Both the position numbers and the translations under genes were made by a program. A DNA stretch of 64,000 nt from Paenibacillaceae bacterium (GTDB lineage Bacteria > Bacillota > Bacilli > Paenibacillales > NBRC-103111): NCBI GenBank assembly GCA_029256185.1, contig JAQSYI010000057.1, positions 1-64,000 of the forward strand, given 5' to 3'. Positions within the stretch are counted from its first letter, which is position 1. Each line of letters opens with the position of its first letter. Below the pieces are notes generated by a model. It had not been told where the DNA came from. It saw nothing but the letters and a program-made list of their open reading frames with translations, and ran no database searches. Below are positions 25,232 to 48,785 of this stretch, piece by piece.

Positions 25232-26602
25232 ATGGATATCAAGTCATTCCCGGAGGGTTTTATGTGGGGAACCGCTACTTCTTCCTTTCAGGTGGAAGGA
25301 GCATGGAATGAAGGCGGCAAGAGCGAATCCATCTGGGACAGATTCTGCTCCATTCCCGGCAGGATTCTCAATCGAGATACCCCTGCTGTTTCCTGCGACT
25401 ATTATCATTCGTATGAAAAGGATATTAATTTGCTGGAACAAATAGGCGTCAACACGTACCGCTTCTCCATCTCTTGGCCCAGAGTAATGCCCGAGGGCAC
25501 AGGGGCGCTGAATCCCGAGGGCATCCAATTCTACAAGAATGTGATTCAATATGTGAAGAGTAAGGGCATTCAGCCGGTTATCATGCTGTATATGTGGGAT
25601 CTGCCGCAGAAGCTCCAGAATATCGGGGGATGGGTTAACCCGCAGATCAGCGATTATTTTGCAGATTATGCAGGCGCCATGTTCCGTGAATTCGGAAGCG
25701 ATGTATCCATATGGATGACTGTGAATGAGCCTCATATTATTTCCCATCTGGGCCATGCCAGAGGTGTTTTTGCTCCCGGGCTGAGAGACTTTAAAGCATC
25801 CCTGGAGGTTTCGCATCAGCTGCTGCTTGCCCACGGCAAGGCAGTGAGAAGGTTTCGCGAATTGGAAGTAGTCGGTGAAATCGGTATCGGTCTCAATTTC
25901 GATATGGCCTTGGCAGCCAGCGGAAAGCCCGAGGATGCGGAAGCAGCGGACAGATGGAATGAGTTCCAGCGTTCCTGGTATTTTGACCCACTGTTGAAGG
26001 GACATTATCCGGAGAAGCTTATCGTCTGGTTTGAACAAAGAGGGCTGATGCCTGAAATCCTCCAGGGAGATATGGATGTTATTCAAACGCCGTTTGACTT
26101 TATCTCTCTTAACTACTACAAAATGATATTCATCCGGCATAATGGAAATAACTGGCCTCTGGAGACAGAAGAAGTGGATGTGAAAGGGCTCATCCCGTTT
26201 GACGGAATTGGCTCGGGACAAGCTTATCCCCAGGGACTCTATGATTACATTATGTGGGTGCATAACAAATATGGTCCAATAAAGCTGCTGATCGGTGAAA
26301 ATGGCATCCCTGTCAACGATGTTGTTTGTTATGACGGAGGGGTTCATGACCAGTCGCGGATTGACTATCTATACAGGCATCTGGAGATGGTGCATAAGGC
26401 CATCCAGGACGGGGCCAATGTCAGGGGATATATGGTTTGGTCCCTGCTGGACAATTTTGAGCTGACCTTCGGCTATTTCTTGCGGTTTGGTCTTGTATTT
26501 GTCGATCTGGAAACACAGAAGAGAACCTTCAAGGACAGTGCTTACTGGTACGGCGAGGTAGTCAGTCAAAACGGCCTGAGCCCTTACCGCCCGTGGCCAT
26601 AA
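25232..26602 (+). CDS. GH1 beta-glucosidase/6-phospho-beta-glucosidase family
   Basis: 456 residues, cytoplasmic. The GH1 signature at the N-terminus is FPEGFMWGTATSSFQVEGAWNEGGK. The proton donor is E166 in MTVNEPH and the nucleophile E356 in IGENGIPV. The C-terminal WSLLDNFELTFGYFLRFGLVFVDLETQKRTFKDSAYWY is typical of beta-glucosidases; a phospho-binding S-x-K-x-Y pattern was not evident, so a plain beta-glycosidase is preferred over the 6-phospho form. Its AGGAGG ribosome-binding site lies shortly after the deoC stop. It presumably removes a terminal beta-linked sugar from imported oligosaccharides, working with the downstream esterase and beta-mannosidase. Confidence 0.93.
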   Translation: MDIKSFPEGFMWGTATSSFQVEGAWNEGGKSESIWDRFCSIPGRILNRDTPAVSCDYYHSYEKDINLLEQIGVNTYRFSISWPRVMPEGTGALNPEGIQFYKNVIQYVKSKGIQPVIMLYMWDLPQKLQNIGGWVNPQISDYFADYAGAMFREFGSDVSIWMTVNEPHIISHLGHARGVFAPGLRDFKASLEVSHQLLLAHGKAVRRFRELEVVGEIGIGLNFDMALAASGKPEDAEAADRWNEFQRSWYFDPLLKGHYPEKLIVWFEQRGLMPEILQGDMDVIQTPFDFISLNYYKMIFIRHNGNNWPLETEEVDVKGLIPFDGIGSGQAYPQGLYDYIMWVHNKYGPIKLLIGENGIPVNDVVCYDGGVHDQSRIDYLYRHLEMVHKAIQDGANVRGYMVWSLLDNFELTFGYFLRFGLVFVDLETQKRTFKDSAYWYGEVVSQNGLSPYRPWP

Positions 26603-26663
26603 ACAGCTCGTCAAGGCAAGCGCAATGAGCCACTATAGTGGAGAACAGGAAGGGACAATCCAT

Positions 26664-28169
26664 ATGCAAGCCTCTGATTTTCAGCTTGATCCAATGTTTG
26701 GGGATCACATGGTGCTTCAGCGCCATAAGTCTATTCGCGTATGGGGGCATGGCGGCAACGGCTCGCCTGTCCAGGTATCCGTTGCCGGAGTGCAAGCGGA
26801 AACCACCGTGCAGGATGGCTGCTGGTATTTAGAGCTGCCTGCCCTTGAGGCAGGCGGGCCCCATACCCTTATTGCCGAATCCGGCCATACCTCCATCATC
26901 CTCCGCGACATCCTGATCGGTGATGTATGGCTGGCAGGCGGCCAATCCAATATGCAGTTTGCCCTTAAGGAGGCGGACGGCGGGCTGGATATGGCCTTGA
27001 CCACGCTGCCGTCGATGCGTTTTTTTACAATCCCCCAGATTTCCTGGGAGGACCCTGACAATCTTCAGACCGGCAGCTGGAAAACCTGCGCTAGGGAAGA
27101 TGCCCCCAACTTCTCCGCCGTCGCTTTTTACTTCGCCCGAAAGATGCTGGCGAATCAGCCGGATGTGCCTATTGGCATTATCGGCTGTTATTGGGGCGGG
27201 ACCTCCGCCGCGTGCTGGATTGCGGAGCAGGACATTCTCGACGCCCCTGAGCTTCATATTTACCGGGATGAATTTCTGGAGACCATCCGGGACTTTGACT
27301 GGGAGGCTTATAATAAGAAGGAGCAGGAATTCAATGCTGCCATGGATGAATATAATCGGAGATTTGCGGAGACGAAGGGCAAGGATCCCGGCACTAACCC
27401 ATGGCCCCCGCCACTCAGCCCCCGGCACTTCCTTCGCCCCTGGGGCCTGTATCACAGTATGCTGCAAAAAGCGGTCCCCTATGGCCTGAAGGGCTTTCTC
27501 TATTACCAAGGTGAAGAGGACACCAAGCGTCCTCACTTGTACGAAAAGCTGTTGACGATTCTGATCCGCCGCTGGCGGCAGGATTGGCAGAATGAGCAGC
27601 TTCCGTTTTTATTCGTGCAGCTGCCCGGCTACGGATGCCAGGGACGGCCCAATGATGAGGAATGGGCTTTGCTTCGCGAGGCTCAAAGCAAGGTGGCTGA
27701 CCAGGTCCCTGACGCTGCCCTCGCTGTCTCCATCGACTGCGGTGATCCGCGCAATATTCATCCCACCAACAAACAGCCGGTGGGAGAACGGCTGGCGCTG
27801 CTTGCCCTGGAGCAGGTTTACGGGTTCGAGGTGCAGGGGGAAAGTCCGGTGCTGGCCGAAGCTGTTGTCCAGGACGGGATTGTCAGCCTGAGCTTCCGCC
27901 ATTCCAACGGCGGTCTGGTAATGGGCAGTCCCGGCCCGGAGGAGGCAGGGCTGCGCGGGTTTGAGCTTGCCGGACGGGATGGCGTCTATGTTGCGGCAAG
28001 TTCCGCTCTAGGCAAGGATGGCAAAATTCTAGTGTGGAGCGAACAGGTGCCATCTCCCCAATATGTACGTTATGCCTGGGCCAACTATCCGAAGGCAAGC
28101 CTTTATAACGGATGCGGTCTTCCCGCCAGTCCTTTCCGGAAGAAGCTTGGAGGAGAGGCAGACGAATGA
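26664..28169 (+). CDS. Sialate O-acetylesterase-like SGNH protein (SASA domain)
   Basis: About 501 residues. An N-terminal beta-domain (FGDHMVLQRHKSIRVWGHG) precedes the catalytic core with the nucleophile serine in AGGQSNMQFAL and a likely acid/base pair in DPRNIHPTNKQPVGERLA. Related enzymes remove O-acetyl groups from sialic acids or plant polysaccharides. With beta-glucosidase and beta-mannosidase neighbours, deacetylation of an acetylated (gluco)mannan oligosaccharide is plausible but inferred. ATG at 26664 has AGGAAGGG upstream and begins at the family's usual start; the track's earlier ATG (26625) is weaker. The stop overlaps the next gene as ATGA. Confidence 0.85.
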   Translation: MQASDFQLDPMFGDHMVLQRHKSIRVWGHGGNGSPVQVSVAGVQAETTVQDGCWYLELPALEAGGPHTLIAESGHTSIILRDILIGDVWLAGGQSNMQFALKEADGGLDMALTTLPSMRFFTIPQISWEDPDNLQTGSWKTCAREDAPNFSAVAFYFARKMLANQPDVPIGIIGCYWGGTSAACWIAEQDILDAPELHIYRDEFLETIRDFDWEAYNKKEQEFNAAMDEYNRRFAETKGKDPGTNPWPPPLSPRHFLRPWGLYHSMLQKAVPYGLKGFLYYQGEEDTKRPHLYEKLLTILIRRWRQDWQNEQLPFLFVQLPGYGCQGRPNDEEWALLREAQSKVADQVPDAALAVSIDCGDPRNIHPTNKQPVGERLALLALEQVYGFEVQGESPVLAEAVVQDGIVSLSFRHSNGGLVMGSPGPEEAGLRGFELAGRDGVYVAASSALGKDGKILVWSEQVPSPQYVRYAWANYPKASLYNGCGLPASPFRKKLGGEADE

Positions 28170-30646
28170 ATGCCCTTGACTTAAACGGCATGTGGAAAAT
28201 GCGGCCCCTGAATGGCGGAGACTGGCTTCCAGCTGAGGTTCCCGGCTCTGTCTATGCGGATCTGCTGCGCAACGGCAGAATGGAGGACCCTTTTTACCGG
28301 GATTATGAAACTGCTGCACTGCGCCGATCCGATGAGGATTACGAATATGAGCGAAGCTTCACCGTCGATCCAGAAATGCTGTCCTCCGATCTTCTGGCTT
28401 TGCGTTTTGAAGGGCTGGATACCCTCGCTGATATCTATGTGAACGGAGAGCTTGCCGGAAGCGCCAATAACATGCACCGGACCTATGAGCTGGATGTGAA
28501 ATCCCGCTTGCGCCTGGGGAGCAATGATCTGCGCATTGTTTTTTCCTCCCCCACCCGCCATGTCGCTGCCCAGATGGAGAAGAACCCGATATGGGGAGTT
28601 GACATTGCGATAGAGGGCTTCAGCCACCTGCGGAAGGCGCATTCCATGTTCGGCTGGGATTGGGGCCCGCAGCTGCCGGATATGGGCATCTGGAGGAACG
28701 TCAGCCTGATATTCGGCAATGTTGCCCGTCTGGACGATATCAGGCTGGATCAAGAGCATAAGGACGGCAAAGTGACGCTTCTGGCTGCCGTCTCTTATGA
28801 GCCCCTCTGTTCCTCCGGTACAGAGGGGCTTTCTGCCAGGCTGCGGCTGACGGCACCCGATGGAAAAGCGGTGTACGAGGAAGAATGCGCCTTTTCGGCA
28901 GGCAAGCAGTTGCTTGATTGGCAGGCGCCGGTTGCAGAGCCACAGATATGGTGGCCCAACGGATATGGCAGCCAGCCATTATATACCGTGGAGGCAACCC
29001 TTTTACAAGATGGAGCCGTACTGGATGGCCGAAGCTATACCATCGGTCTGCGCACCATGGGGCTGCATCTGGAAAAGGATCAATGGGGTGAAAGCTTCGC
29101 CATCCAGGTGAATGGGGTTCCCATATTTATTCATGGAGCCAACTACATTCCGGAGGATAATATTCTGTCCCGTTATTCATCGGAGAGGACGGAGCGGCTG
29201 CTGCTGGATTGTGTGGACGCCAATTATAACTGCATTCGCGTATGGGGCGGCGGAATTTATCCCGACGAGACTTTTTATGATCTGTGTGACCGGCTGGGTC
29301 TTGTGGTGTGGCAGGATTTTATGTTCGCCTGCGCCGTTTATGACATGTCCGGGGATTTTGCCGGGAATGTCCGGCAGGAGGCTATCCAGCAGGTGAAGCG
29401 TCTGCGCCACCGGGCATGTCTGGCCCTATGGTGCGGGAACAACGAAATTGAGACTGCCCTAGTCAACTGGGACTTCCCCAAAACCGCCAAGTACCGGTCC
29501 GATTATATCCGCCTGTTTGAAATTATGCTGCCGGACATCATCCGCGCCCATGACCCGGCTAGGGATTATTGGCCCTCCTCCCCTTCCTCCGGAGGCGGAT
29601 TCGATGATCCGGACAACGAAAACCGGGGGGATACTCACTACTGGAAGGTGTGGCATGGGCAGCGGCCATTCACCCATTATCGCAAGTATCATTTCCGGTT
29701 CTGCTCGGAATTCGGCTTTCAGTCCTTCCCCGGCTTGAAGACTATTCAAGCCTTTACCCTTCCTGAGGATCACAATATCTTCTCCTATGTGATGGAGAAG
29801 CATCAGAAGAACGGCGCGGCCAACGGCAAAATCCTCTATTACATGGCCGAAACCTTCAAGTATCCGAAGGACTTTCCATCCCTCCTGCTGGTCTCCCAGA
29901 TGCTGCAGGCGGAGGCCATCAAATACGGAGTGGAGCATTGGCGGCGCAACCGAGGCCGGTGCATGGGGTCCATCTATTGGCAGCTGAATGATTGCTGGCC
30001 TGGGGCTTCATGGTCGTCCATCGACTACTTCGGCAGATGGAAGGCGTTGCATTATTTTGCCCGCCGCTTCTATGCGCCGGTACTGCTCTCCGCCATGGAG
30101 GAGGGCGACTCTGTGGAGCTGCATGTGACCAATGAACGGAGAGAGCCGTTCCGGGGAACCATCCGCTGGCGGCTGATGGAGGCGGACGGTACGGTGCTGC
30201 GTACCGGGGAGGCGGACGCAGCTGTGGAAGCGCTCTGCGCGAAGCTCTGCGTCGCCCTGGACTTCGCCCCCGAGCTGGAGGGAGACTGCCGGAGAAGGCG
30301 ATACGTGGACTTTGCGCTGATTGAAGAGCGCTCCGCTGTCAGCGTGTCGGAGGGAACGGTGTTGTTTGTCAAACCCAAGCATTTTGAATTTGCCAATCCG
30401 CAGTTGGATGTGAATGTGATGGAAACGGAAACCTCGTTCGAACTGGTCGTTCGTTCCGCGTCCTACGCCAAGTATGTGACTCTGGATTTGACCGAAGCCG
30501 ATGGCGTATTCAGCGACAATGTCTTTGACCTGTCCGCCGGGGATGGGAAGGTGGTACAGCTGCCGAAGAGCCGGCTCTCCCGCCCGCTAAGCCTGGTCAA
30601 GCTGAAGAGCCAACTGACGGTTTCTAGCGCATTCCACTGGTTTTAA
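28166..30646 (+). CDS. GH2 beta-mannosidase
   Basis: 826 residues. GH2 sugar-binding domain (about 1-180, LNGMWKMRPLNGGDWLPAEVPGSVYADLL), then the immunoglobulin-like domain and the barrel from about 310. The proton donor is E427 (WCGNNEIE) and the nucleophile E515 (CSEFGFQSFP). Markers specific to beta-mannosidase are HLRKAHSMFGWDWGPQLPDMGIW, WGGGIYPDETFYDLCDRLGLVVWQDFMFACAVY and GSIYWQLNDCWPGASWSSIDYFGRWKALHYFARRFYAP. No signal peptide is present, so it cleaves imported manno-oligosaccharides. The ATG overlaps the esterase stop by 4 bp with GGAGGAGAGG upstream. It is the last gene of the operon, followed by a terminator. Confidence 0.94.
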   Translation: MNALDLNGMWKMRPLNGGDWLPAEVPGSVYADLLRNGRMEDPFYRDYETAALRRSDEDYEYERSFTVDPEMLSSDLLALRFEGLDTLADIYVNGELAGSANNMHRTYELDVKSRLRLGSNDLRIVFSSPTRHVAAQMEKNPIWGVDIAIEGFSHLRKAHSMFGWDWGPQLPDMGIWRNVSLIFGNVARLDDIRLDQEHKDGKVTLLAAVSYEPLCSSGTEGLSARLRLTAPDGKAVYEEECAFSAGKQLLDWQAPVAEPQIWWPNGYGSQPLYTVEATLLQDGAVLDGRSYTIGLRTMGLHLEKDQWGESFAIQVNGVPIFIHGANYIPEDNILSRYSSERTERLLLDCVDANYNCIRVWGGGIYPDETFYDLCDRLGLVVWQDFMFACAVYDMSGDFAGNVRQEAIQQVKRLRHRACLALWCGNNEIETALVNWDFPKTAKYRSDYIRLFEIMLPDIIRAHDPARDYWPSSPSSGGGFDDPDNENRGDTHYWKVWHGQRPFTHYRKYHFRFCSEFGFQSFPGLKTIQAFTLPEDHNIFSYVMEKHQKNGAANGKILYYMAETFKYPKDFPSLLLVSQMLQAEAIKYGVEHWRRNRGRCMGSIYWQLNDCWPGASWSSIDYFGRWKALHYFARRFYAPVLLSAMEEGDSVELHVTNERREPFRGTIRWRLMEADGTVLRTGEADAAVEALCAKLCVALDFAPELEGDCRRRRYVDFALIEERSAVSVSEGTVLFVKPKHFEFANPQLDVNVMETETSFELVVRSASYAKYVTLDLTEADGVFSDNVFDLSAGDGKVVQLPKSRLSRPLSLVKLKSQLTVSSAFHWF

Positions 30647-30712: not shown

Positions 30713-33700
30713 TTACGGGTACGTAATGCGGCTGGTTATATCCACTCTGCCGATCTGCGGATTCCATGCGTTGACCGGCGACGGCTTAAAGGCAATCTTC
30801 AAATACTGGGTGCCCTCTGGCAGCGTGCCTGTGTAATCCACTTCATTCCAACCGCCGGAAGTGGTTGACTTTGTCGGAGCAAATGGAGTGTACGTCACAT
30901 TGTCCGCCGAAATAAGGAATTGCAGATCTTCGGTGCTCTCATACGACCATGACCAGGCTTTGACGGCAAACTGGCTCATGTCCATGTCAGGCTCCGCTTT
31001 GTATACTACATATTCCTCCGTATTTGTTGTTCGGACCAGCCTGGATGTGTCTCCTCCAGTATGGCCTGCATTAGCGCCTGTGAAGATCAGATGGTTGCTA
31101 TGGGCGTACATGATGCTGAAGTCGTTCTGCTCGTCTCTTACAGTGATGCTTGGCACCTTGCTTGTCATTTTAAATTCGCCAATCTGTGCAGTCCAGGAAT
31201 ATGCGGCGGATTTCTGCATGAAAACAACCTTTATATATTTGGTGCCTGCCGGAAGCGACCCGCTGTAGTTAACCTTGTTGTACGAAAGCACTTCAACTGT
31301 TTTCACCGGTGTAAACTGGGTGTAAGCAGAGTTATCCGGTGAAGTGTATATTTGGAAGTCTGTCATGGCTTCCCATTTATAGAACCAGGTCGTGAGGTCG
31401 AAGCTGGTTATATCGAACCCGTAAGGAGACTTGTAAGTCAGATATTCGCCATTTGTATTGGCAGCCGCCCGGATGATCCGCGACTCATCCCCGTTGAAAT
31501 TTTGGGGATACCCGCTTTCAAACTTTAAGGTTGCCGTTCGGTCGAATACGTTAGAGAAATCGTTCAACGAATCCTCCAGCGTAATTTCCCTGACAGCCGG
31601 AACGGTGGGAGGAGCAATTGCGCTGGTAATTCTCACCTCACCAATCTGGGGATTCCAGATATAATTTGACTTAAGCGCATAGACGATCTTCAGAAATTTC
31701 GTTCCTTCTGGAAGCAACCCGCTATAGTTGACTTTTGTCCACCTCGGCACTGCTGTCGTTTTAGTAGGTGTATACAAGGTATAAGTGATATCGTCGGACG
31801 AAGTATAAATTTGGAAATCCGTCTTGGCTTCGTTCGACCAGAACCAGGTTGTGATATCGAAGCTTGTCATCTCACGGTTATCGGCAGCCTTGTAAATGAG
31901 ATATTCTTCATTCGTGTTAGTCGTTGTCCGGATGGCGCGCGATGTGTCTCCATTGAAGTACTCCGGAGAGCCGCGTTCAAAATCCAGATTGGAGCTGCGT
32001 GCATAGACCTGGGTATAATCGTCCAATACATCCACCGTAGTCAAAATCTCAGGCTCCGGCTCAGCGGGCGGATTAACCGGCGGGACAGGCGATGGTGTGG
32101 GCAGCGCGGTCTGAACCGCCGTGTCGTATGCGAACTTTATCGAATGGGAGTGCCCGTTCCGCTGCTCCGTATTCACTTCGAATCGGATGGTGGGCTGAAG
32201 CTGCAGGACGGTAACTGAATCATCCTGCTCGACAACGGCTAGGCCGTTTCTGGCGATTTCAAAGGTAAGCTTGCTCTGGAGCTGGGTCGGATCGGATACG
32301 GCAACATCCAGTACCCCTTCCTGATCCTTCAGCGTGATGGAGGAAGTGTCTGATGCAGTAACCCGATCGACGGTTCCCGGCTCCCAAAAGTTAGCGCCAA
32401 CTATATACTGCGTCCTTTCACGGACAGCCTGAATATTACGGTTGTTAGCGATAATCTCGATATCCGGATTCGCACTATAGCTTGCTGTCTCTTCCGCCGT
32501 CTTGTTGGGCAAGAGCACATAGGAATAATCCTTGTTGGTGGGACTCTTGCCGTGATCGTACCACAGCGTCAAGTAATTCTTCGAGATCGGATTGGTGGTT
32601 CCCCCCGCCGTTATTTCCGACCAAGTGCCTGTTGAGGTTGCGCGTTGGGCTTTAATCGAGGCCGATCCCGGGAAGTAATAGCCGCCTGTGCCTTCCAAGT
32701 AGGCATAATCCACACTATTCAGATCCTCCATCCATCCCAGATTGACCGGTTTGGACACCCCGTTGACGATAAATTGCTCATCGCCCATGGCCTTCTTCGA
32801 CGAATGCAGCGGGTTCAGAACAGGGCCCAGCGCATTGGGAGCGTAAAGCTGGATTTCGGAGACCCTATTGGCAGAGGACAGTTGATCGCCGTCAAACACA
32901 AATTTGACATATCTTGCCGTCGTATCTGCAAAATCATAGGGCATGATTTCCGCTGTACGCCCGATGCTGAAGCCGCTGTAGACCGTACTCCATACGGTTC
33001 CGTCCAAAGAGGTATCGATACGGAATGGGTACTCCGTCTGCGTTCCCTGGTAAAAGCTGATCCCGGCATGGCCGATCGGAACATCGCTGCCCATATCGAA
33101 TTGCACCCATTGTCCGCTGCCGTACGAGCTCCAGTAGCTTGTAATATTGTTGTCTATGGCTGATTTGTAGCTGGCGGAGTAGGTGCTATCCGTAACCGTA
33201 ACAGGGGATAACGGAACCACCTCCGGCATAATCACAAGATTGCCCGCCGCACAGGGGGCGTACAATTGTACTTCCGTAATGCTATTCCATAAATTAGTTG
33301 AATTTCCATGACCAACAATCTTCACATATCGGGCTTCCACATCCGGGAAATCGAATACTTGGATGGTATCATCGGCAACGATGCTGGAGCTTCCACTGAA
33401 AGCAGTGCTCCATGTTTGGTTGTCGGTAGAAACCAGAATATCGATTTGGGTCGTTCTGGTGCTCTGAACCATGAAGCTGATTCCGGCATAGCCTAGCGTC
33501 TGCGTCTTGCCAAGATCGTATTGGAGCCATTGCCCGTTGCCGGAGGAGGACCACCTTGTGGTAAAACTATTGTCTATGGTGTTCTCCGGAAGATTACCAT
33601 CGTTGCCGCTATCTGATACAGCGTATACCTTGAGGCGAACCGGTTCCCCTCCGAGTGAAGCAGAAGCGGGAGAGAGCAGATCAATGCCTTGGAAGGATTG

Positions 33701-35398
33701 GGTTTTATTCAGCATCCGGTTCTCAATGGTGGTTTCAATGGTCCGGCTATCGGAGCTGTAAATTCCGGCCCCTAGAGCAACCATCTCGTCATCAAACATA
33801 AACCAGGATTTCTTGGCTGTTAATGAGCTTCCGTACGCTTTATAGTCCATTCCGACGGTATAGGTTTCCCCCAGCAGCTCCGAACCGCCTGCGAAGGTGT
33901 TGGGGCTTCTGTATCCTGTCCCTTCATAATTCGCAGTACTCCGCGTCATGGTATCCACCGTTGTGCCGGGGAGGCGATACTTGTTCACCGTTGGCCAGAA
34001 ATCATAATATTGCCGCAGGTCATGGTTATTGTACAGGTAGGTCATGCCTGCCCCTGTATACCAGCCCTTCAAGTTCTCGCCAACAGTCGCTTCATGGGTC
34101 CCAATCCGCTTGGAGGACATACTAAGACCGATGCCGAAGCCGGGGCGAAGATGAACCGCGCGATCCATGCCGGCGTATATCTTGCTCAGGAGCTTCTCGC
34201 CTCTGGGCTCGATCGAAGCATCCTCCATGATTTGTTGGGTCCATAGGGCAATCCTCAAGTTGACAACGCTATAATAATTAAACTCCGTATCCGCCTGAAG
34301 CCAATATTTGACCATCGACTTCATTCTCAGGGCATCCGCTTCTGGCGCCATCTGGGCCAGGCGCACAATGGCCGCTATCGTATTATGACCGGTCGTATGA
34401 TCCTGTTCATAATTTCGGACGATTGCTCTTCCCCGGACCATATCCATCATGGCGCCGTTATAGATAAGCGGCTCATAGGCGTTATAGATCCATTCGTACA
34501 TATGATTGACATCCGGGTCTGTCACTTCCCATACAGAACCCTTCAGCATATAGAGAGCATTGCCCAACTCTTGCAGGAGGCTAACCCCATATCCGCCGGT
34601 ATACGCAAACACGGTGTGCTGAACAAAGGAGCCGTCCTCGTAGAATCCGTCGCCAACATTCACATAGTCAAAAACCGGACTTAGTCCGTCTCTTGCCGAG
34701 GCGATTTTGGCGGGATCCTTCACAATGATTCCACGCAGGGCAATAAGATTGCATTTCCAGACCAGATTAGCGCCGGTATTGTCCAACTGGTTATAGTTCA
34801 CCCTCTGGGGAACAGGCGAAAACCGCTCAATCGGCTTCATGTAATTGGCAATCTTCTCTGGTGTAGCAATCAGATCATCATACATAAGCACAACGGTATC
34901 ATTCAATTGCAGGGGAGAACCAATTTCCCAATCCCACCAGTTGTCATAATAAGCTCGGGTTTCGTTGTAACGGTTGACATACATCCAGTCCAATGCGCCG
35001 ATGATGTCCGTCTTCAACTGCGGATTGCCATAGAGGGCGGTACCCGGGGTGCTATAGGCAAGCGCCATGTTCTTAATCCGCTGATAAGATTGGGTAACAT
35101 GGCTTGAGTTTGTTGGACTGGCCAAATCACTCCACAGATAAGTCCGGGCCGTCACAGATGTATTCATGGTGCCCCAGTTGGTTTGACTCAAACTGTATAA
35201 TTGGGCGGAGACGATTGGGTCATTCACATCGTAGCCGCTGCCTCCGGTCAAATTATCCTTCCACCTTAATCTCGCCGTATCAAATTCGTCATTGGCAGCG
35301 CTTACGTTTGTTGCCATAAAAGGAGCAAATAACGAAACAAACAATGCCATAACAAGAAATATGCTTAACCTTCGGCTCCATTCTTTCCTAACCATCAT
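30713..35398 (-). CDS. Secreted polysaccharide lyase family 8 with nested discoidin domains and three C-terminal modules
   Basis: About 1561 residues. Signal peptide (LSIFLVMALFVSLFAPFMATNVSA) to about residue 36. The PL8 alpha/alpha toroid spans about 40-390. In track numbering the catalytic set N213 (LDNTGANLVWK), H263 (SFVQHTVFAY), Y272 and R326 (RGRAIVR) has exactly the spacing I recall for pneumococcal hyaluronate lyase (N349, H399, Y408, R462). The beta-domain is interrupted at about 588-855 by two F5/8C discoidin domains (IDNSFTTRWSSSGNGQWLQYDLG; IDNNITSYWSSYGSGQWVQFDMG) and resumes at FIVNGVSKPVNLGWMED. Three copies of a about 140-residue unknown module end the protein. PL8 enzymes act on hyaluronan, chondroitin or xanthan; which one is not readable. 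It is last in the ABC importer operon. Confidence 0.92.
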   Translation of the reverse strand: MMVRKEWSRRLSIFLVMALFVSLFAPFMATNVSAANDEFDTARLRWKDNLTGGSGYDVNDPIVSAQLYSLSQTNWGTMNTSVTARTYLWSDLASPTNSSHVTQSYQRIKNMALAYSTPGTALYGNPQLKTDIIGALDWMYVNRYNETRAYYDNWWDWEIGSPLQLNDTVVLMYDDLIATPEKIANYMKPIERFSPVPQRVNYNQLDNTGANLVWKCNLIALRGIIVKDPAKIASARDGLSPVFDYVNVGDGFYEDGSFVQHTVFAYTGGYGVSLLQELGNALYMLKGSVWEVTDPDVNHMYEWIYNAYEPLIYNGAMMDMVRGRAIVRNYEQDHTTGHNTIAAIVRLAQMAPEADALRMKSMVKYWLQADTEFNYYSVVNLRIALWTQQIMEDASIEPRGEKLLSKIYAGMDRAVHLRPGFGIGLSMSSKRIGTHEATVGENLKGWYTGAGMTYLYNNHDLRQYYDFWPTVNKYRLPGTTVDTMTRSTANYEGTGYRSPNTFAGGSELLGETYTVGMDYKAYGSSLTAKKSWFMFDDEMVALGAGIYSSDSRTIETTIENRMLNKTQSFQGIDLLSPASASLGGEPVRLKVYAVSDSGNDGNLPENTIDNSFTTRWSSSGNGQWLQYDLGKTQTLGYAGISFMVQSTRTTQIDILVSTDNQTWSTAFSGSSSIVADDTIQVFDFPDVEARYVKIVGHGNSTNLWNSITEVQLYAPCAAGNLVIMPEVVPLSPVTVTDSTYSASYKSAIDNNITSYWSSYGSGQWVQFDMGSDVPIGHAGISFYQGTQTEYPFRIDTSLDGTVWSTVYSGFSIGRTAEIMPYDFADTTARYVKFVFDGDQLSSANRVSEIQLYAPNALGPVLNPLHSSKKAMGDEQFIVNGVSKPVNLGWMEDLNSVDYAYLEGTGGYYFPGSASIKAQRATSTGTWSEITAGGTTNPISKNYLTLWYDHGKSPTNKDYSYVLLPNKTAEETASYSANPDIEIIANNRNIQAVRERTQYIVGANFWEPGTVDRVTASDTSSITLKDQEGVLDVAVSDPTQLQSKLTFEIARNGLAVVEQDDSVTVLQLQPTIRFEVNTEQRNGHSHSIKFAYDTAVQTALPTPSPVPPVNPPAEPEPEILTTVDVLDDYTQVYARSSNLDFERGSPEYFNGDTSRAIRTTTNTNEEYLIYKAADNREMTSFDITTWFWSNEAKTDFQIYTSSDDITYTLYTPTKTTAVPRWTKVNYSGLLPEGTKFLKIVYALKSNYIWNPQIGEVRITSAIAPPTVPAVREITLEDSLNDFSNVFDRTATLKFESGYPQNFNGDESRIIRAAANTNGEYLTYKSPYGFDITSFDLTTWFYKWEAMTDFQIYTSPDNSAYTQFTPVKTVEVLSYNKVNYSGSLPAGTKYIKVVFMQKSAAYSWTAQIGEFKMTSKVPSITVRDEQNDFSIMYAHSNHLIFTGANAGHTGGDTSRLVRTTNTEEYVVYKAEPDMDMSQFAVKAWSWSYESTEDLQFLISADNVTYTPFAPTKSTTSGGWNEVDYTGTLPEGTQYLKIAFKPSPVNAWNPQIGRVDITSRITYP

Positions 35399-35497
35399 TA
35401 ACACGCCCTTTCATTTCGCTTCCATTGCTGAGCAAACACGATTTTGTATGCGCTTTCTTTATATCCCGAAGTCATGCCTAAAACAAGCAGGTGTTTG

Positions 35498-35546: not shown

Positions 35547-37196
35547 TTACTTCAAGTTTTTATTCAGATCATCCAGACCAGGCTGAACCTCCTGGAGCTT
35601 CTGGTTCACCCAGTTATTCCAATCCTTCTCAATATCCTTGGAGGTCATCAACTCCGCAATCTTCTTGGAAATGTCCGTGTCTGTCATCGCCTTGGTAAAT
35701 ACAGGGGATGTATAATACGCCTGTTCCACATTCATCTTGATAACATTGCTTTCGGGGCCGCTGTACAGCTCCAGGTTGCGGCGAATCATATCCCGCGCCC
35801 ACTGCGGGTTGGAAATATTATCAAGGTTGGCTGCGTCGCGACCGCCGGCAGGTCTTAACCACGATGTACTCCCGTAGGCATACGGATAAACAGGGTTGCC
35901 ATTGGCATCCTTCTCTTTCCAAAGCACTTCCACTTTCCCTGCACTATCCAATTTCCAGTCTACATCCTTAATCCCGTATCCTGCAAACAGACGGCCTTCA
36001 TCTGATGTGTAGAAATCCATAATTGCCGCCCAGCGTTCCGCCTTCTCATCGCTCATCTTGTGATTCATGGCTGTTTGTGACCAGTGATCCGATCCTTGCC
36101 AGGCGACAAGCTTTCCGTTGGGCGCTTTCACCTTGGCCAATCCGATGGATGTCTGCGGATCAAGAGCCGGGTTGGCGTCCTTGAAGTTTTTGAACAAGCC
36201 TACGGTCGTACTCATCGTAACGCCTGAAGCAACAATAGAAAATGATTTGCCCGCAACGAAATTGTTGTCGGCGTCCCCCGATTTTACCAAAGGCTGATCC
36301 TTCCAGATGATTCCTTCATCGTATTGCTTCTTGATTTCCTTCACCGCTTCCAGCGTCTCCGGCAGTGTCGCACCCCATATCCAGGTTCCATTCTTGTCTT
36401 TCACAACGGTATCCATGTAGGGTGAGATTCCCCCGACTACATACTTGGGAAAAGCCCAGGCGTCTCTGAAAATCATCCCGATGGTTTTCCCGGCGCCATT
36501 CTTCCCGGGGTCCTTCTCCCGGACGGCCTTCACCAGGTTGTTCCACTCATCATAGGTATAAATATCGTCTTCCTTGACCATGCCTACGTCCTTGGCCCAG
36601 TCTTTCCGGTAGAAGTAGCCTGATCCATTATACACATAGTCATATTTGCTCAGGTCGCTAACGGCCGGCCAAGCGTACATTTTTCCGTCGATATTGAATT
36701 TCTTGCCTGCTGTCATTGCATCGTATTGCTTCTTCAGGTTGGGATACTTGGCCAGTTCAGGATAAGGCTTGAACAGTCCCGCTTTGACCCATTCGACGAA
36801 CTCGCCGTAGCGGCTTTGATGCACATCCAGCATAATCAAGTCCGGCGCCGAATCGGAATTAAGCCATACCCGGGTTTGATCCAGATAGTTTGCCCAGGTC
36901 AACGGTACAAATTCAAATTCCACATTGAATTTCTCGCTTAACCACTTGAAATTTTCCGCCGGTTGACCCGAGGCAGTCAAGCCAGCCTTCTCGGCGTCGA
37001 TGACGCTCATGGTGAATTTCAGCTTATTCTTGAACGGGTTGGCTTCCGGTGAAGCAGTTGCAGACGTATTGGCTGCTGCTGATGGTGAAGAAGCAACCTC
37101 CGGCTTGTCGGAACTACACCCCGCCATTAATCCTGCCGCCATGGTGAAGACCATTGTTCCTGCAAACCATTTGTACTTTCTAGTTCCAGTGGTCAT
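35547..37196 (-). CDS. Extracellular sugar-binding lipoprotein of ABC importer 1
   Basis: 549 residues. The lipoprotein signal ends in MAAGLMAGC, with the cysteine as lipidation site, followed by a Ser/Ala/Pro-rich linker. The rest is a family-1/LplA-like solute-binding protein (NPFKNKLKFTMSV, WLNSDSAPDLIMLDVHQ, AWPAVSDLSKYDYVYNGSGYFYRKDWAKDVG). It captures an oligosaccharide for the two permeases encoded just upstream. Start at ATG behind GGGAGG. The nearby PL8 lyase suggests unsaturated uronic oligosaccharides as ligand, which is inference. Confidence 0.9.
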   Translation of the reverse strand: MTTGTRKYKWFAGTMVFTMAAGLMAGCSSDKPEVASSPSAAANTSATASPEANPFKNKLKFTMSVIDAEKAGLTASGQPAENFKWLSEKFNVEFEFVPLTWANYLDQTRVWLNSDSAPDLIMLDVHQSRYGEFVEWVKAGLFKPYPELAKYPNLKKQYDAMTAGKKFNIDGKMYAWPAVSDLSKYDYVYNGSGYFYRKDWAKDVGMVKEDDIYTYDEWNNLVKAVREKDPGKNGAGKTIGMIFRDAWAFPKYVVGGISPYMDTVVKDKNGTWIWGATLPETLEAVKEIKKQYDEGIIWKDQPLVKSGDADNNFVAGKSFSIVASGVTMSTTVGLFKNFKDANPALDPQTSIGLAKVKAPNGKLVAWQGSDHWSQTAMNHKMSDEKAERWAAIMDFYTSDEGRLFAGYGIKDVDWKLDSAGKVEVLWKEKDANGNPVYPYAYGSTSWLRPAGGRDAANLDNISNPQWARDMIRRNLELYSGPESNVIKMNVEQAYYTSPVFTKAMTDTDISKKIAELMTSKDIEKDWNNWVNQKLQEVQPGLDDLNKNLK

Positions 37197-37283
37197 TGAT
37201 TGACAATCCTCCCTTTTTTATTTCATCATTTCATATATCGAAACCCGCAACAGGATTTCTTCGATTATGCCTTGCCTTACTCC

Positions 37284-38150
37284 CTATGCCTTAACGCCAC
37301 CCAGAGTCAAACCCTTGACGAAATATTTCTGGAGAAATGGATATACGATGGATATCGGCAGTATGGTTACAATGATCCCGGCCATCTGAATCCCTTGAGG
37401 GAATGTGTTGGGCCGTAGATCCTCAGGCAATTCGTTGATGACACTGCTGGCGGACTGCAGCATATTGCGTATCATCAACTGCAGCGGCAACTTGTCTATG
37501 GAGCGAATAAACAGCATCCCGTTATACCACTCATTCCAGCGATCCACCCCGTAGTACAATCCAATCGTGGCTAACATGGGTACAGATAAGGGCAAGTATA
37601 TTTTCATCAGAATCTGCATCTCTCCAGCCCCATCCAGCCGGGCTGCTTCATCCAGATCGATGGGAATGGTCTGGAAGTAACTGCGCATAATCATCAGATT
37701 CATCACTGCAATCCCCGCTGGCAGAATCATGGCGCCATAACTGTCAATGAGATGCAGATTCTTGATCAGCAGATATCCGGGAATGAGCCCTCCCTGGAAG
37801 AACATCGTGAAGATAACGAATAAATTAACAATCCGCCTCCCCGGTATCGGCTTGGAGAGTACATAAGACATGGTCACGGTCAAGAACAGGTTGTAGGCCA
37901 CGCCCAATATAACCACGATCACGGTTGACTTGAAGCCGGAGAAGAGTCCCCGCCATTGAAAGATGAACTCATAGGAGGAAAAGTCCAACTCGGGCGGATA
38001 GAGCAGGAAGGGAGACCGCACATAGACGGACATGGGCACGATAGAAGTTAGCACCGCATTATAGAAGGGGTAAAGAATAATGATTCCCCAGAGAATCATG
38101 AAACTGGCGGCGAAGATTTGAAAGGAACTGAACTTTTTCACATTGTACAC
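37284..38150 (-). CDS. ABC importer 1 permease, LplC/YtcP type
   Basis: 288 residues, about six membrane segments. The EAA loop contacting the ATPase reads SYFQTIPIDLDEAARLDGAGEMQILMKIYLPLSVPMLATIGLYYGVDRWNEW, typical of MalG/LplC proteins, and the end PFLQKYFVKGLTLGGVKA is characteristic of LplC. AGGAGGTG precedes the ATG. It starts four bases after the stop of the partner permease. No ATPase gene is nearby; this importer class normally shares an MsmX-type ATPase. Confidence 0.92.
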   Translation of the reverse strand: MYNVKKFSSFQIFAASFMILWGIIILYPFYNAVLTSIVPMSVYVRSPFLLYPPELDFSSYEFIFQWRGLFSGFKSTVIVVILGVAYNLFLTVTMSYVLSKPIPGRRIVNLFVIFTMFFQGGLIPGYLLIKNLHLIDSYGAMILPAGIAVMNLMIMRSYFQTIPIDLDEAARLDGAGEMQILMKIYLPLSVPMLATIGLYYGVDRWNEWYNGMLFIRSIDKLPLQLMIRNMLQSASSVINELPEDLRPNTFPQGIQMAGIIVTILPISIVYPFLQKYFVKGLTLGGVKA

Positions 38151-38153
38151 CTC

Positions 38154-39134
38154 CTATATCATTCTCGAATCGCTGTCCAGCCTGCCAATGATGAAATTGG
38201 CGGATAGCAGCAGGATGCAGTTGACGACACCCTTGAACAATCCCACCGCTGTACTAAGCCCATAATCTGGCGTCTGCTGGAAGCTGATGCGGTATACATA
38301 GGTATCGATAATGTCCGCCCACTTCATGACAATGGGATTATACAAATTAAATACCTGGTCGAAATTACCGCTAATAGAATATCCTACAGACATAATCAGC
38401 AGAATGGCCGCTGTGCTTCTGATGCCTGGCCAGGTAATATGCCATATGCGCTGAAAGCGGCTTGCTCCGTCTATCGTAGCGCTTTCATACAGAGCAGGGT
38501 CAATGCCTACAATGGCCGCCATGTAGATAATACTGCTCCAACCGGCCTCCTTCCATATACCACTGAAGACCAGCAGCCCACGGAATATATTGCCTTCTGT
38601 CAGAAACCCGACAGGTTGACCTCCCAGAGCAGTAATGAGAGAATTCAGCATTCCGTCCGTGGAGAGCAGATTCATCATAATGCCGCTGATGGTCACCCAG
38701 GACAGGAAGTGGGGCAGTGTGAACACAATCTGCAATCCTCGGCGCAGCTTGCTGGAATACAGCTCATTCAGAATAATCGCCAGAATAATCGGAACCGGAA
38801 ATGAGAACACAGTTCGGAGAAACGATATAATCAGCGTGTTCTTCAATGCGATCCAGAATTCCTGGCGGCCGAACAAGGTCTGGAAATTATCCAACCCCAC
38901 CCATGGACTGTGGGTAATCCCCTTCGCAATACTATACTGCTTGAATGCCAACTGAATGCCGTACATGGGTCCATAGGCAAACAGGGCGAAGAATATGACC
39001 CCGAAGCTCAATAGTACGTACAATTTCCGGTAATGCCAAATTTGACGTCTCAACTGGTGCATTCTCTCCGAACGCCCGCTTGTCCGTCCACGCTGCCCAG
39101 CCGCCGGACTTCCCTCTGTCACAGCAAGTTTCAT
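38154..39134 (-). CDS. ABC importer 1 permease, LplB/YteP type
   Basis: About 326 residues with a polar N-terminus of about 40 residues and six membrane segments. LplB markers: LFAYGPMYGIQLAFKQYSIAKGI, FILSFLRTVFSFPVPIILAIILNEL-like, and the EAA loop ALYESATIDGASRFQRIWHITWPGIRSTAAILLIMSVG. The track start is eight codons upstream; ATG at 39134 has GAGGGAGGAATT before it. It is the first gene of the importer/PL8 operon, with the shared 64-bp regulatory element 50-110 bp upstream, after the histidine kinase gene. Confidence 0.9.
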   Translation of the reverse strand: MKLAVTEGSPAAGQRGRTSGRSERMHQLRRQIWHYRKLYVLLSFGVIFFALFAYGPMYGIQLAFKQYSIAKGITHSPWVGLDNFQTLFGRQEFWIALKNTLIISFLRTVFSFPVPIILAIILNELYSSKLRRGLQIVFTLPHFLSWVTISGIMMNLLSTDGMLNSLITALGGQPVGFLTEGNIFRGLLVFSGIWKEAGWSSIIYMAAIVGIDPALYESATIDGASRFQRIWHITWPGIRSTAAILLIMSVGYSISGNFDQVFNLYNPIVMKWADIIDTYVYRISFQQTPDYGLSTAVGLFKGVVNCILLLSANFIIGRLDSDSRMI

Positions 39135-39181
39135 GCCAATTCCTCCCTCACTCCACATTCTGATTTTCTTCTATATCTCTA

Positions 39182-39245
39182 TTGTAAGCGCTGCAATGAA
39201 GGAGTCATATGTCTGTAAATCAGATGTCTTTTATCCTCAAATCAG
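39182..39245 (-). promoter_or_regulatory. Shared 64-bp promoter/operator element, copy 2
   Basis: 80% identical without gaps to 20911-20974. Minus strand features: TTGAGG-17-TACAGA, a 15-bp direct repeat (AGACATCTGATTTAC / AGACATATGACTCCT) and a cre-like TTGCAGCGCTTACA. It lies between the kinase gene and the importer operon and probably binds the YesN-like regulator encoded upstream. Confidence 0.72.
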
Positions 39246-39279
39246 GTTACCCCTTAATCAGACCTAAGCAGCACCCAAA

Positions 39280-41103
39280 TCAGTTCCTGTCCAGCTTGAC
39301 CTTCACCGTTATGCAGGTTCTTATATGGGGCTCACTATCCACCAGCAGCCCGCAGCTTTTTCCGTAATACAGCTTGATTCGTCCATTGATATTCGCCAGG
39401 CCAATCCGGGACCGCTGCCGGCCGGCTGCATCCCTTGCCCAACTGGTTTGAAATGTGTCATTTAGTTCCTGGACTTGCTCCTTATCCATTCCCGAGCCTG
39501 TATCTGAAACGGCAAAATAGGCAAATTCCCCATCCCGCCAACCGCTAATGGCTATCTGAAGCTCGTCATCCGTCACCTCTAGGCCATGGCGCACACAATT
39601 TTCGACCAGCGGCTGAAGAGACATTTTGATCATCGTACAGCTATTCAAGCTTTCATCTACATTGATGGACAGCTGGAGCCTGCCTTCGTAGCGGATAGAA
39701 ATAATCCGGTAATAATCCGTTACACATTCCAGTTCGGCCTGCACTGTGGTAGTAATCCCGCCATTGATGCTGTATCGAAAAATATTGGCCATGCTCCCCA
39801 CAATGACGACAATTTCCTTCGCCTTGTATACGGTGGCAATGCTGCGAATGCACTCCAGCGTATTGTACAGAAAGTGAGGATTAATCTGGCTTTGCAGCGC
39901 CAATATTTCCGATTCCTTCTGCATCAGCTCCAGCTTGTGCAGCTGCTCCTGCATATCAAATATATGCTGTGTCATCCAGTCTGACTTATTCAGCATATCA
40001 TTGATGTTTCCGGCAATCGTACCGAACTCATTCTTGTACCTGACCTTGAGTCGGGCTTCCCGGTTACCTTCCCCGATTTCCTTCAAGGTGGCCAGAATCG
40101 AGGTAAGGGGGCGATTGATCCCCTGAATCATCCCCAGACCCAGCAGAAAGAGTACTGCAATACTGACCGCTGTCAATCCAATCCCTTGGTAGAACAAGCG
40201 TGCAATGTCGGCGTACACCTCATGGACCGGCGTAATATTGATGGACTTCCAGCCTGATTGGGGGTTGGTTTTGATTAATACATAAGAACTCTGTCCAAGA
40301 AAGTCATATGTCCCTACAGTGTTGCTCAGCCCGTGGGCTTCAACCTGTCCCATCAGGCGGGCGATGGGTTCAACCACAGCTTGCGTATCTCTCCCGGAAT
40401 TAAGGGCAATAATCCGGTTGTTCCCGTCGGTAATCGCCACCAATGAATGGACTGTCGCCGCAGTGCCTGTCACTACCTCACTCAGCCACTTCTGCCTGCT
40501 CCACAGGATGCAATAGCCCGTCCTCTGGTTGCGCTCCTCATATAGCCCGGTTGTATGACGGATGGGCACCACATAGGCAAAATGCCGGTACAAGGAGGAA
40601 TCATCGGCGCTATAACTGATCCAGACCGGGGCCAGCTCCGGGTTGTCGCTCTCGAAGTCAATCTGCCGGCTGATGACCTGATAGATGGAGTAGGTGAAGA
40701 TGTTCTTGTAGGTCAACAGTGACCTGGTTCGGTCTACCAGAGCGATATCCAGAATAATGTCGCTGGAACCGGTAATTCCGCCGAAGAAATTGGATATGTT
40801 CTTCGCCAGCACGGACCGTTCGGTTATGCTCTCGGACAGGGAATCGTTCTGCAGCTGCAAATATTCCTGCACGTAGGGGTTATTGGCGATAGATTGGCCG
40901 GTTTTTTCAATCTGCTCCGACGTCTGGCTCAGAACCATATCCGTGCGGTTAATATTGGCATAAATTTCCGCCGTGTTCTCATTGCGCTGGCGGATATAAA
41001 TATTGGCATAGAAGAACAATTGCAGCAGCAAAATCATGAATGAGGCTGTGCAGAACATCAGAATCAACTGTCGGCGCAGACTTAAGGAGCGCAGTCGCTT
41101 CAC
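39280..41103 (-). CDS. YesM-type sensor histidine kinase
   Basis: 607 residues. Two membrane segments (about 12-32 and 303-325) enclose a Cache-like extracellular sensor domain. A HAMP linker (INRPLTSILATLKEIGEGNREARLKVRYKNEFGTIAGNINDMLNKS) leads to the His_kinase domain with the phospho-accepting histidine in LQSQINPHFLYNTLECIRSIA, and the ATPase with QPLVENCVRHGLEV and FAVSDTGSGMDKE. It starts at GTG four bases after the stop of the response regulator gene. With that partner it probably senses a sugar outside the cell and switches on the importer, the lyase and perhaps the GH50-like gene. Confidence 0.93.
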   Translation of the reverse strand: MKRLRSLSLRRQLILMFCTASFMILLLQLFFYANIYIRQRNENTAEIYANINRTDMVLSQTSEQIEKTGQSIANNPYVQEYLQLQNDSLSESITERSVLAKNISNFFGGITGSSDIILDIALVDRTRSLLTYKNIFTYSIYQVISRQIDFESDNPELAPVWISYSADDSSLYRHFAYVVPIRHTTGLYEERNQRTGYCILWSRQKWLSEVVTGTAATVHSLVAITDGNNRIIALNSGRDTQAVVEPIARLMGQVEAHGLSNTVGTYDFLGQSSYVLIKTNPQSGWKSINITPVHEVYADIARLFYQGIGLTAVSIAVLFLLGLGMIQGINRPLTSILATLKEIGEGNREARLKVRYKNEFGTIAGNINDMLNKSDWMTQHIFDMQEQLHKLELMQKESEILALQSQINPHFLYNTLECIRSIATVYKAKEIVVIVGSMANIFRYSINGGITTTVQAELECVTDYYRIISIRYEGRLQLSINVDESLNSCTMIKMSLQPLVENCVRHGLEVTDDELQIAISGWRDGEFAYFAVSDTGSGMDKEQVQELNDTFQTSWARDAAGRQRSRIGLANINGRIKLYYGKSCGLLVDSEPHIRTCITVKVKLDRN

Positions 41104-41107
41104 AACA

Positions 41108-41863
41108 TCACTCTCCCTTCCGCAGTCCGGCCGGTGTGACGCCTGTTATCTTCTTGAAGATTCTGTTGAAGTAAAAGTAGTCCGTATAGCCCACCTTCTC
41201 GGCTACCTCGGCAACAGGCAGCGACGTCTTGACAAGCAATTCCTTCGCTTTGTTGATGCGAATGGAATTCACGTATTCCGAATAGGTCATTCCCGTATGC
41301 TTCTTGAAGAGGGCACTGGCATAATTCTTGTTAAAAAAGAACTTCTGGGACAAGTCCTTCAGCTGAATCTGTTCCTGATAATGCTCATTCAGGTAGAGAA
41401 GCATCCTCCCGAAGCCGGTGGAATCGCTGTCATCTTCTTGCTCGCTTATGACAGCTTCCGGAGGGTTGCCTTTCATCGCAGCATGCTTCTCGTCCAGCCG
41501 TTTTTTGAGCCGCGGCAGCAAGGATTGGGAGGTTTCCTCACTCAAGGGCTTCAGGCAGTAATCGAAGGCGCCTGCCCGAATTGCTTGCTGGGCATACTCG
41601 AACTGGCCGAAGCCGCTGATGATGACAATCTCCGTATCCAGACCATTCTGCCGCAAGACTTCCATCAATTGAATACCGCTGACCCCCGGCATTTGAATGT
41701 CGGTAAATACCGCATCGGGACGTGTGGCCAGAATCTCGTCCAGAGCCATGGCCGATCTGGAATAGGCTCCGATTACCTGGAACCCCCATTCCGACCAAGC
41801 AAAGGTTTGGGCAATCCCCTTCAATATCCATGGCTCATCATCCACCAGAACCACACTGTACAT
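41108..41863 (-). CDS. YesN-type AraC response regulator
   Basis: 251 residues, short for the family. Receiver domain about 1-120 with phospho-acceptor aspartate in PDAVFTDIQMPGVSGIQLM and the conserved Lys in YCLKPLSEE. The C-terminal AraC double helix-turn-helix begins at about 150 (YLNEHYQEQIQLKDLSQKFFFNKNYASALFKKHTGMTYSEYVNSIRINKAKELL..VAEKVGYTDYFYFNRIFKKITGVTPAGLRKGE). The usual long linker between them is nearly absent. It is co-transcribed with the kinase. The direct repeats in the two 64-bp elements are its likely targets. Confidence 0.93.
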   Translation of the reverse strand: MYSVVLVDDEPWILKGIAQTFAWSEWGFQVIGAYSRSAMALDEILATRPDAVFTDIQMPGVSGIQLMEVLRQNGLDTEIVIISGFGQFEYAQQAIRAGAFDYCLKPLSEETSQSLLPRLKKRLDEKHAAMKGNPPEAVISEQEDDSDSTGFGRMLLYLNEHYQEQIQLKDLSQKFFFNKNYASALFKKHTGMTYSEYVNSIRINKAKELLVKTSLPVAEVAEKVGYTDYFYFNRIFKKITGVTPAGLRKGE

Positions 41864-43809: not shown

Positions 43810-45246
43810 CTAATTGATAAACCCGGCTGACTTCAATATGCGTCCCAGCATCGCCGCCGCTTCGGCACGGGTGGAGCGTTCCGCGGGCTCCAAAGCATTA
43901 TTGGAGCTCCCCTCCATAATGCCGCCCGCCACCATCTGCGCCATATCCTCCCTGGCCCATACACTAATGTCATTGCTGTCGAAGAATGAATCAAGCTCCT
44001 GTTCCCTCACGGATTCCAGCCGCACGCCCGCATAAGCGGCCATTCTCGACAGGAACACCGCAAGCTCCTCTCTGCTTATGAACTCATCCGGACGGAAGCT
44101 GCCGTCGCCGTAGCCTTCTGCAAGTCCGGCCTTCTGAGCAGTTGTTACAGAAGCTGCATACCAGTCGGAGTTCATCACGTCCGTGAAGGGCGCTGCCGGT
44201 TCATACCGGACCAGACCGAGAGCGCGGACCAACAATGTTGCCAGCTCTGCACGGGTGATCAGAGCGTCGGGAGCAAATCGGTCCGTCTCTCTGCCCTCCA
44301 GCAGCAGCTTGGATGCCAGCCGCTCCACATCCTCTGCTGCCCAATGGCCATCCAGATCGGTGAATGAGCGTTCCACTGACACCGCGCCGTAGATGCTGTT
44401 GCTGTTGCGCCTGATCGTGACCCATGTCTGGCCTTCTTCGTCCGTTTCGAAGACGGAAGGAACAAATTCTATGGTGCCTTCCTGGGGATCAAAGGTAACA
44501 GCCGTTGCTCTGCCGACGTTCACCCTGTCGCTTACGGGAATGGTTCGGGCCACAAAGGTTGATCCAAAGCCGCTTATGGCTTGTTCCTTCTCACCGGACT
44601 GGAGCGCCAGTTGAAAATCGAACCAATCGCCCAGCACCGAAACTCCCCTCGCGCCGGCTGCTGCCGCTGCGTCTGCGGCCGTGGCTGCAGCTCCGGTCAG
44701 CCTGCTGAGCGAGACGGCCAGCTGCCACTCTCCGGGATCTCCTGCAATTCCTCCGGCCGTTCGTATCACATCCAACAGCGAAACGGGTATGTCATACTCG
44801 GCACCTGCTGCCCGGAAGGAGAGAATGCCCTGAGGCAGGCGAGCGGCAGCTGCCAGCAAGCTGTCTGCAGACAACAGAAAGCGCGCTGTATCTCCCTTAT
44901 CTACTCCTGATATCTGAATCACCAGCTTCTCTGTCCCGCCCGCGGCGGCCAAATCAACGGCTTGGGCAAAGCTGCCGGAGTCTGTCTGCACAGTAACAAG
45001 AGGAGCTCCCGTCTTACCAATGCCCCGGGATATCCGAAGTGCCTCCTGTTTCAGAAGAAACTCTGCCGCTACAGGCGAATCCGGTCCTGAGGCAGGGGGT
45101 GCAACGTTAATTTCAGCCGCCCTGGCAGGCTGCTCGACCTGCTCTGGTTCTTGCTCTGGTTCTTGCTCTGGTTCTTGCTCTGGTTCTTGCTCTGGTTCTT
45201 GCTCTGGTTCTTGCTCTGGTTCTTGCTCTGGTTCTTGCGGCGGCAT
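43810..45246 (-). CDS. SLH-domain surface anchor, probably the detached C-terminus of the upstream beta-helix protein
   Basis: 478 residues in the track. It begins with PPQ(EPEQ)8, a charged linker, then a domain of about 200 residues often found before SLH repeats, and three SLH domains (FTDLDGHWAAEDVERLASKLLLEG; FTDVMNSDWYAASVTTAQKAGLAEGYGDGSFRPD; SISVWAREDMAQMVAGGIMEG-like) that bind the cell wall polymer. It has no signal peptide and no convincing ribosome-binding site, and overlaps the end of the upstream ORF in another frame. The natural reading is that both ORFs were one about 1630-residue surface protein and a one-base change near GATGCCGCCGCAAGAA (about 45240-45250) split it. Confidence 0.85.
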   Translation of the reverse strand: MPPQEPEQEPEQEPEQEPEQEPEQEPEQEPEQEPEQVEQPARAAEINVAPPASGPDSPVAAEFLLKQEALRISRGIGKTGAPLVTVQTDSGSFAQAVDLAAAGGTEKLVIQISGVDKGDTARFLLSADSLLAAAARLPQGILSFRAAGAEYDIPVSLLDVIRTAGGIAGDPGEWQLAVSLSRLTGAAATAADAAAAAGARGVSVLGDWFDFQLALQSGEKEQAISGFGSTFVARTIPVSDRVNVGRATAVTFDPQEGTIEFVPSVFETDEEGQTWVTIRRNSNSIYGAVSVERSFTDLDGHWAAEDVERLASKLLLEGRETDRFAPDALITRAELATLLVRALGLVRYEPAAPFTDVMNSDWYAASVTTAQKAGLAEGYGDGSFRPDEFISREELAVFLSRMAAYAGVRLESVREQELDSFFDSNDISVWAREDMAQMVAGGIMEGSSNNALEPAERSTRAEAAAMLGRILKSAGFIN

Positions 45247-48703: not shown

Positions 48704-48785
48704 CAAAAATTCCCCATTTCTCGATATTATTTCCTTATATTAATTAAAATTCGCAAATTGCCGGCCATGCCTTAAGGCTGGTTAT

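Follow-up and report, generated by a model that had tools for sequence, protein, structure and literature searches.

What is a domain of about 140 residues that stands three times in tandem at the C-terminus of one secreted protein, and three times again at the C-terminus of another? The window analysed here, a 64,000-nucleotide stretch at the start of contig JAQSYI010000057.1 of a Paenibacillaceae bacterium, encodes both proteins and thus six copies of this module. We consider it probable, at roughly 70%, that the module constitutes an unnamed family of carbohydrate-binding modules (CBMs) and that it here holds a xanthan-type lyase to its polymer, a binding role that we infer.

The first triplet forms the C-terminus of a secreted PL8 lyase of 1563 residues (30713-35404, minus strand), delimited by its open reading frame and by Pfam and PDB matches, in which PL8 catalytic domains with two inserted discoidins precede the three modules. 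These lie on the minus strand at residues 1120-1265 (31610-32047), 1273-1419 (31148-31588) and 1419-1562 (30719-31150) and match the family profile with 167.9, 162.1 and 180.2 bits, respectively; the first was also delimited by BLASTP, and the third was modelled with AlphaFold. The second triplet, located by profile and BLASTP, lies on the minus strand at 61350-61784, 60909-61346 (the copy that was modelled) and 60453-60890. An earlier note on this DNA had placed both triplets almost exactly, although the second reaches upstream to about 61784 rather than 61750, and had described the second host as a CBM9 protein. The part of its reading frame inside the window (60444-63998, minus strand), which is cut by the window end, does show CBM9 in Pfam, together with Glucodextran_B and the three C-terminal modules, but the full reading frame (L057) of 1591 residues starts with a GH30-like catalytic domain. 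Specifically, residues 1-480 are similar to GH30 enzymes (5cxp, E 5e-11), and the other domains follow, which makes the whole protein a GH30-like enzyme with CBM9. Adjoining it is a DUF5054 protein (58545-60332, minus strand) whose start resembles, by eye, GH38 alpha-mannosidases.

That one module occurs in triplicate at both C-termini, as had been proposed, is confirmed by mutual BLASTP matches among all six copies, with E values from 1e-56 to 1e-7 and identities of 36-53% inside one protein and 23-30% across the two. This pairwise comparison is the independent evidence, as the family profile was built from 38 rows with all six window copies among them; against that profile, 2000 shuffles of the PL8 tail reached at most 10.7 bits, compared with 162-180 bits for the real PL8 copies. 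All six copies carry the same residue in ten columns (G31, D32, R35, Y50, F61, S81, D83, Y87, L110 and W129), and the residue pattern that had been read from the sequence comes close to them, except that the F before its GD varies. Across 154 module copies, D6, D34, R37, Y50, S81 and K118 are nearly invariant, and the polar residues D6, D34, R37, R40, S81, D83, K118 and Q132 are kept throughout; some of these may be structural.

The module as defined by these copies has no name in the general family libraries. No Pfam or NCBIfam model scores above its cut-off for any of the six window copies, which bears out the first impression that no named family could be recognised; the NCBIfam search gave no match of note, the Pfam models CBM_6 and CBM_35 match none of 38 members, and the profile searches yielded no clear match of the six copies to any CBM or discoidin family already on record. 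Pfam matches to CBM60 and Acb1 (E 0.06-0.2, one member each) were set aside as chance, as were PDB matches to the PH domains 3dcx and 3hsa (E 0.2-0.9), which were absent from the later PDB profile search. No account of the module was found in the literature covered, which takes in few subscription papers. The best Pfam match of the window copies is F5_F8_type_C (PF00754; E 0.01, 16.4 bits against a gathering cut-off of 28.2). Judged by sequence, these searches show a separate family outside Pfam and NCBIfam that appears weakly and remotely tied to the F5/8C/CBM32 superfamily.

This tie bears on the alternative that survives best, namely that the module belongs among the F5/8C (CBM32) discoidins as a divergent subgroup and needs no family of its own, a possible but rather doubtful reading that would itself be compatible with carbohydrate binding. 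Like the discoidins represented by PF00754 and YeCBM32, the module is an accessory domain of carbohydrate-active enzymes and a predicted beta-sandwich. A profile search of the PDB gave YeCBM32 (E 0.0013), followed by weaker matches to CBM32 and factor VIII, mostly through the second half of the module; weak PF00754 matches occur in 16 of 38 diverse copies (best E 0.0004), and a single copy, a distant homologue in a GH5 protein (L113), exceeds the cut-off, with 29.4 against 28.2 bits. An hhalign comparison with the discoidins of the same lyases reaches 91.9% probability, but over 68 columns only, all in the C-terminal half, where the two share by eye S-x-D-G-x-x-(W/Y) and Y-L-K-I, the latter in the broader form Y-(L/V)-(K/R)-I. 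The first half, in contrast, has a pattern of its own (D6, G-D34-x-S-R37-x-x-R40 and E-Y-x-x-Y50-K), in which D-x-S-R-x-x-R and E-Y-x-x-Y-K stand, again by eye, in place of the T-x-W and DLG of the discoidins. Moreover, a single-pass profile reached the discoidins of the same PL8 protein at just E 0.0065; an iterated profile also reached them, which was not counted as homology since such a profile may drift. These two discoidins (33248-33640, found by PF00754, and 32831-33208, a further PF00754 stretch; both minus strand) are of the ordinary F5/8C type and interrupt the catalytic part of the lyase, as they do in its close relatives; they belong to a superfamily related to the module, yet are not copies of it.

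The predicted fold also speaks against a simple assignment to the discoidins, since CBM6 and CBM35 outrank CBM32 in the fold search. The check by structure prediction that the earlier note had suggested gave confident beta-sandwiches for both copy types: AlphaFold models PL8 copy 3, from 36 sequences, with a pLDDT of 95.3 and a pTM of 0.90, and copy 2 of the GH30-like protein, likewise all-beta, with 92.8 and 0.88. In Foldseek searches of the PDB, the first model is closest to CBM35, CBM6 (both at E of about 1e-4 and TM up to 0.6) and MiXBM, with a Paenibacillus CBM35 in complex with glucuronic acid among its best matches; the second matches CBM6, MiXBM, CBM35, discoidins and Eph receptor domains, as well as toxin sandwiches. 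As to the eight-stranded sandwich of the discoidins, CBM32 and the factor V C2 domain are just distant matches. CBM6 and CBM35 reach a Foldseek probability of 1.00 and TM values of 0.45-0.63, but they differ from the module in the missing profile match, in an identity of 10-17% and in a large rmsd, and the similarities as a whole (TM about 0.4-0.6, rmsd 4-9 A) favour no single family. The models support a compact galactose-binding-like beta-sandwich, as in CBM6, CBM35, CBM32/discoidins and MiXBM.

If the module is a CBM, which polymer would it hold? For the first triplet, the catalytic part of its host provides a clue. The best PDB matches of the PL8 lyase are the xanthan lyases 6f2p (680 bits) and 1j0m (636 bits), whereas other PL8 lyases, including those acting on hyaluronate and chondroitin, match at 424 bits or less. 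Because of this proximity, and because the catalytic Asn-His-Tyr positions are retained, the enzyme is assigned to the xanthan-lyase group, with putative activity on xanthan side chains. Of the XalA residues Tyr315 and Arg612, the former is kept by eye and the latter is not; the arginine is also lost in 6f2p, so it gives no verdict on specificity.

Beside the lyase, on the minus strand, genes for a lipoprotein of solute-binding type, two permeases, a sensor kinase (His_kinase in Pfam; the others assigned from their reading frames by eye) and a response regulator form a sugar-uptake and regulation set (35547-41863), and a divergent group on the plus strand (25232-30646) encodes a GH1 enzyme (by eye), a SASA-type esterase and a GH2 enzyme of beta-mannosidase type. 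Permease and regulator homologues adjoin nearly all PL8 relatives, and the module-bearing ones are nearly always flanked by a sugar ABC transporter and a two-component system; some also lie near GH92 (L066, L119, L164), GH88 (L118, L119) or a GDSL esterase (L066). The xanthan locus of P. taichungensis comprises two PL8, two GH88, GH38 and GH92 genes (PMC12827396) and so shares GH88 and GH92 with these loci; by this analogy, the gene set around the PL8 relatives is of xanthan type. The same genome encodes a multimodular PspXan9-like GH9 xanthanase (6fhj, 1139 bits), another xanthan lyase (6f2p, 915 bits), six PL8 genes and 39 GH88-type matches. No GH9 gene was found at the window locus and no GH92 gene in this genome, and the substrate here may therefore differ from xanthan. 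The most likely target that we would name is xanthan or a similar exopolysaccharide bearing uronic acid.

The module is missing from the closest xanthan lyase of the genome and from its GH9 xanthanase. The loci G000:C76:255450-282907 and G000:C37:39326-40657 comprise further PL8 genes, one of them a close xanthan lyase, with a GH88 nearby and, elsewhere, the GH9 xanthanase; all of these are free of the module. Two gene interruptions were seen along the way. In the window, a reading frame that encodes discoidin, fn3 and Ig-like domains (45113-48706) overlaps another with SLH anchors (43810-45246) and loses its frame within a tandem repeat of 12-base units near 45130-45240; on the minus strand, 43810-48706 looks like one wall-anchored protein broken by a frameshift. 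In P. qinlingensis, the PL8-module gene (L067 5215-9902; the same gene in L123) comes as two reading frames, seemingly because the frame shifts where the first discoidin ends.

Beyond the window, the module occurs on nine more contigs of the same genome. Within the family, 39 of 105 genomes have it, as do 92 of 399 within the order and 3 of 399 across the phylum, one of which is the genome of the window and one other a member of the same order; it is thus frequent in the order and rare elsewhere in the phylum. Named relatives that carry it include Paenibacillus paridis, P. plantarum, P. oryzisoli, P. psychroresistens and Cohnella sp., and a search of viral contigs gave no relatives. The hosts of the module, all of them secreted and either enzymes or similar to enzymes, are of many kinds (PL8, GH5, GH30, GH42-like, GH66-like, GH123, Hepar_II_III and beta-helix) and bear one to five copies (five in L111), often together with CBM9, CBM4_9, CBM96 or SLH domains. 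Module-bearing proteins of four genomes (L062, L063, L064, L072) combine it with cohesin-type and sometimes dockerin-type domains, plus CBM9 and FIVAR. A group of secreted proteins of about 1000-1300 residues (L059, L085, L087, L088, L090, L095, L100, L102) carry one N-terminal module each; their large region has no Pfam family, apart from an fn3 domain seen in L059, and is possibly an unnamed lyase or hydrolase.

The type of module follows the type of enzyme. On a tree of 154 copies, built on few columns, host labels need 27 changes as compared with 107 when shuffled; the labels were set by hand from Pfam matches and best BLAST partners, some of them roughly, as single-linkage clustering lumped together dissimilar hosts that had accessory domains in common and was dropped. 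There is one supported clade apiece for the GH30, GH123, GH5a and toroid-type copies. The first copies of PL8 proteins cluster together across species and the third copies partly do so; in the window lyase and in P. paridis, copy 2 originated close to copy 1, which for the window is also its nearest neighbour on the tree. This agreement between clade and enzyme is compatible with binding domains evolving alongside the enzyme that bears them; much of it is also common descent of whole proteins.

Carbohydrate binding, as a putative function, is the reading best supported by fold, hosts and locus. The module is a non-catalytic domain joined to carbohydrate-active enzymes, which is one of the features of CBMs as a functional class. 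Secreted enzymes with one to five modules would thereby keep their catalytic domain on its polysaccharide, and tandem copies would raise avidity; the ligand of the PL8 modules would most likely be xanthan or a xanthan-like exopolysaccharide, and that on other hosts would vary with the enzyme. The PL8 modules carry a negative net charge (mean -3.2), which lends no support to plain electrostatic binding of anionic xanthan. The earlier note had left a choice between carbohydrate and wall binding, and of the two the latter has lost ground. Anchoring to the cell wall or wall polysaccharides of the producer, rather than to a substrate, would suit a module that is largely confined, within its phylum, to the secreted proteins of a single Gram-positive order and is reused on very different enzymes. 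Such a role is nonetheless unlikely, because several hosts (L089, L097, L107) already have separate SLH wall anchors beside the module and because module type tracks the enzyme, which would be unnecessary if all modules bound the same wall ligand. Less likely still are structural spacers or protein-protein contacts with no sugar ligand, to which the arrays of up to five copies and the fold matches to protein-binding Eph receptor domains might point, since modules are often terminal rather than between domains, adjoin CBMs, and keep polar residues over 154 copies, even if some of these serve the structure.

How does a putative xanthan-binding CBM of this kind compare with those already described? 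The xanthan-binding modules described so far fall into CBM84 and, in a single case, into CBM66 (PMC11002231, PMC10881899). The CBM84 and MiXBM modules (6fhj, 7ehg) are likewise found on xanthan lyases and xanthanases, and the fold of the module resembles MiXBM (TM 0.47-0.60); yet the module sits on a different set of lyases, and an identity with CBM84 was rejected, as two profiles left the C-terminal module of PspXan9 (6fhj) unmatched in PDB searches up to E 10. CsCBM66, of the Cohnella xanthanase CspXan9, comes from the same bacterial group and binds lyase-treated xanthan (PMC11002231), but is assigned to CBM66 and may differ from our module. The terminal module of PXL is also C-terminal, unclassified and xanthan-binding on a PL8 xanthan lyase (PMC10881899), but its chain 6f2p has no match to the module profile. 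We advance only tentatively, at somewhat less than even odds, the fuller proposal of a new CBM family of this order (Paenibacillus, Cohnella and kin) with subfamilies specialised for the polysaccharide of each enzyme, among which the PL8 subfamily would be a third independent type of xanthan binding beside CBM84 and the xanthan-binding CBM66.

Neither the fold nor the concept of accessory binding domains is new, and the module is a useful addition of moderate surprise. Practical use exists for xanthan-binding modules, and fusing one to a xanthanase is reported to have raised activity 16-fold (PMC10049358). For the order itself, the findings mean that about a quarter of the sampled genomes carry, on many types of enzyme, a module that two general libraries leave unnamed, and a family model would improve the annotation of many secreted enzymes. 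The enzyme-linked clades predict a polysaccharide for each clade and provide a ready test set.
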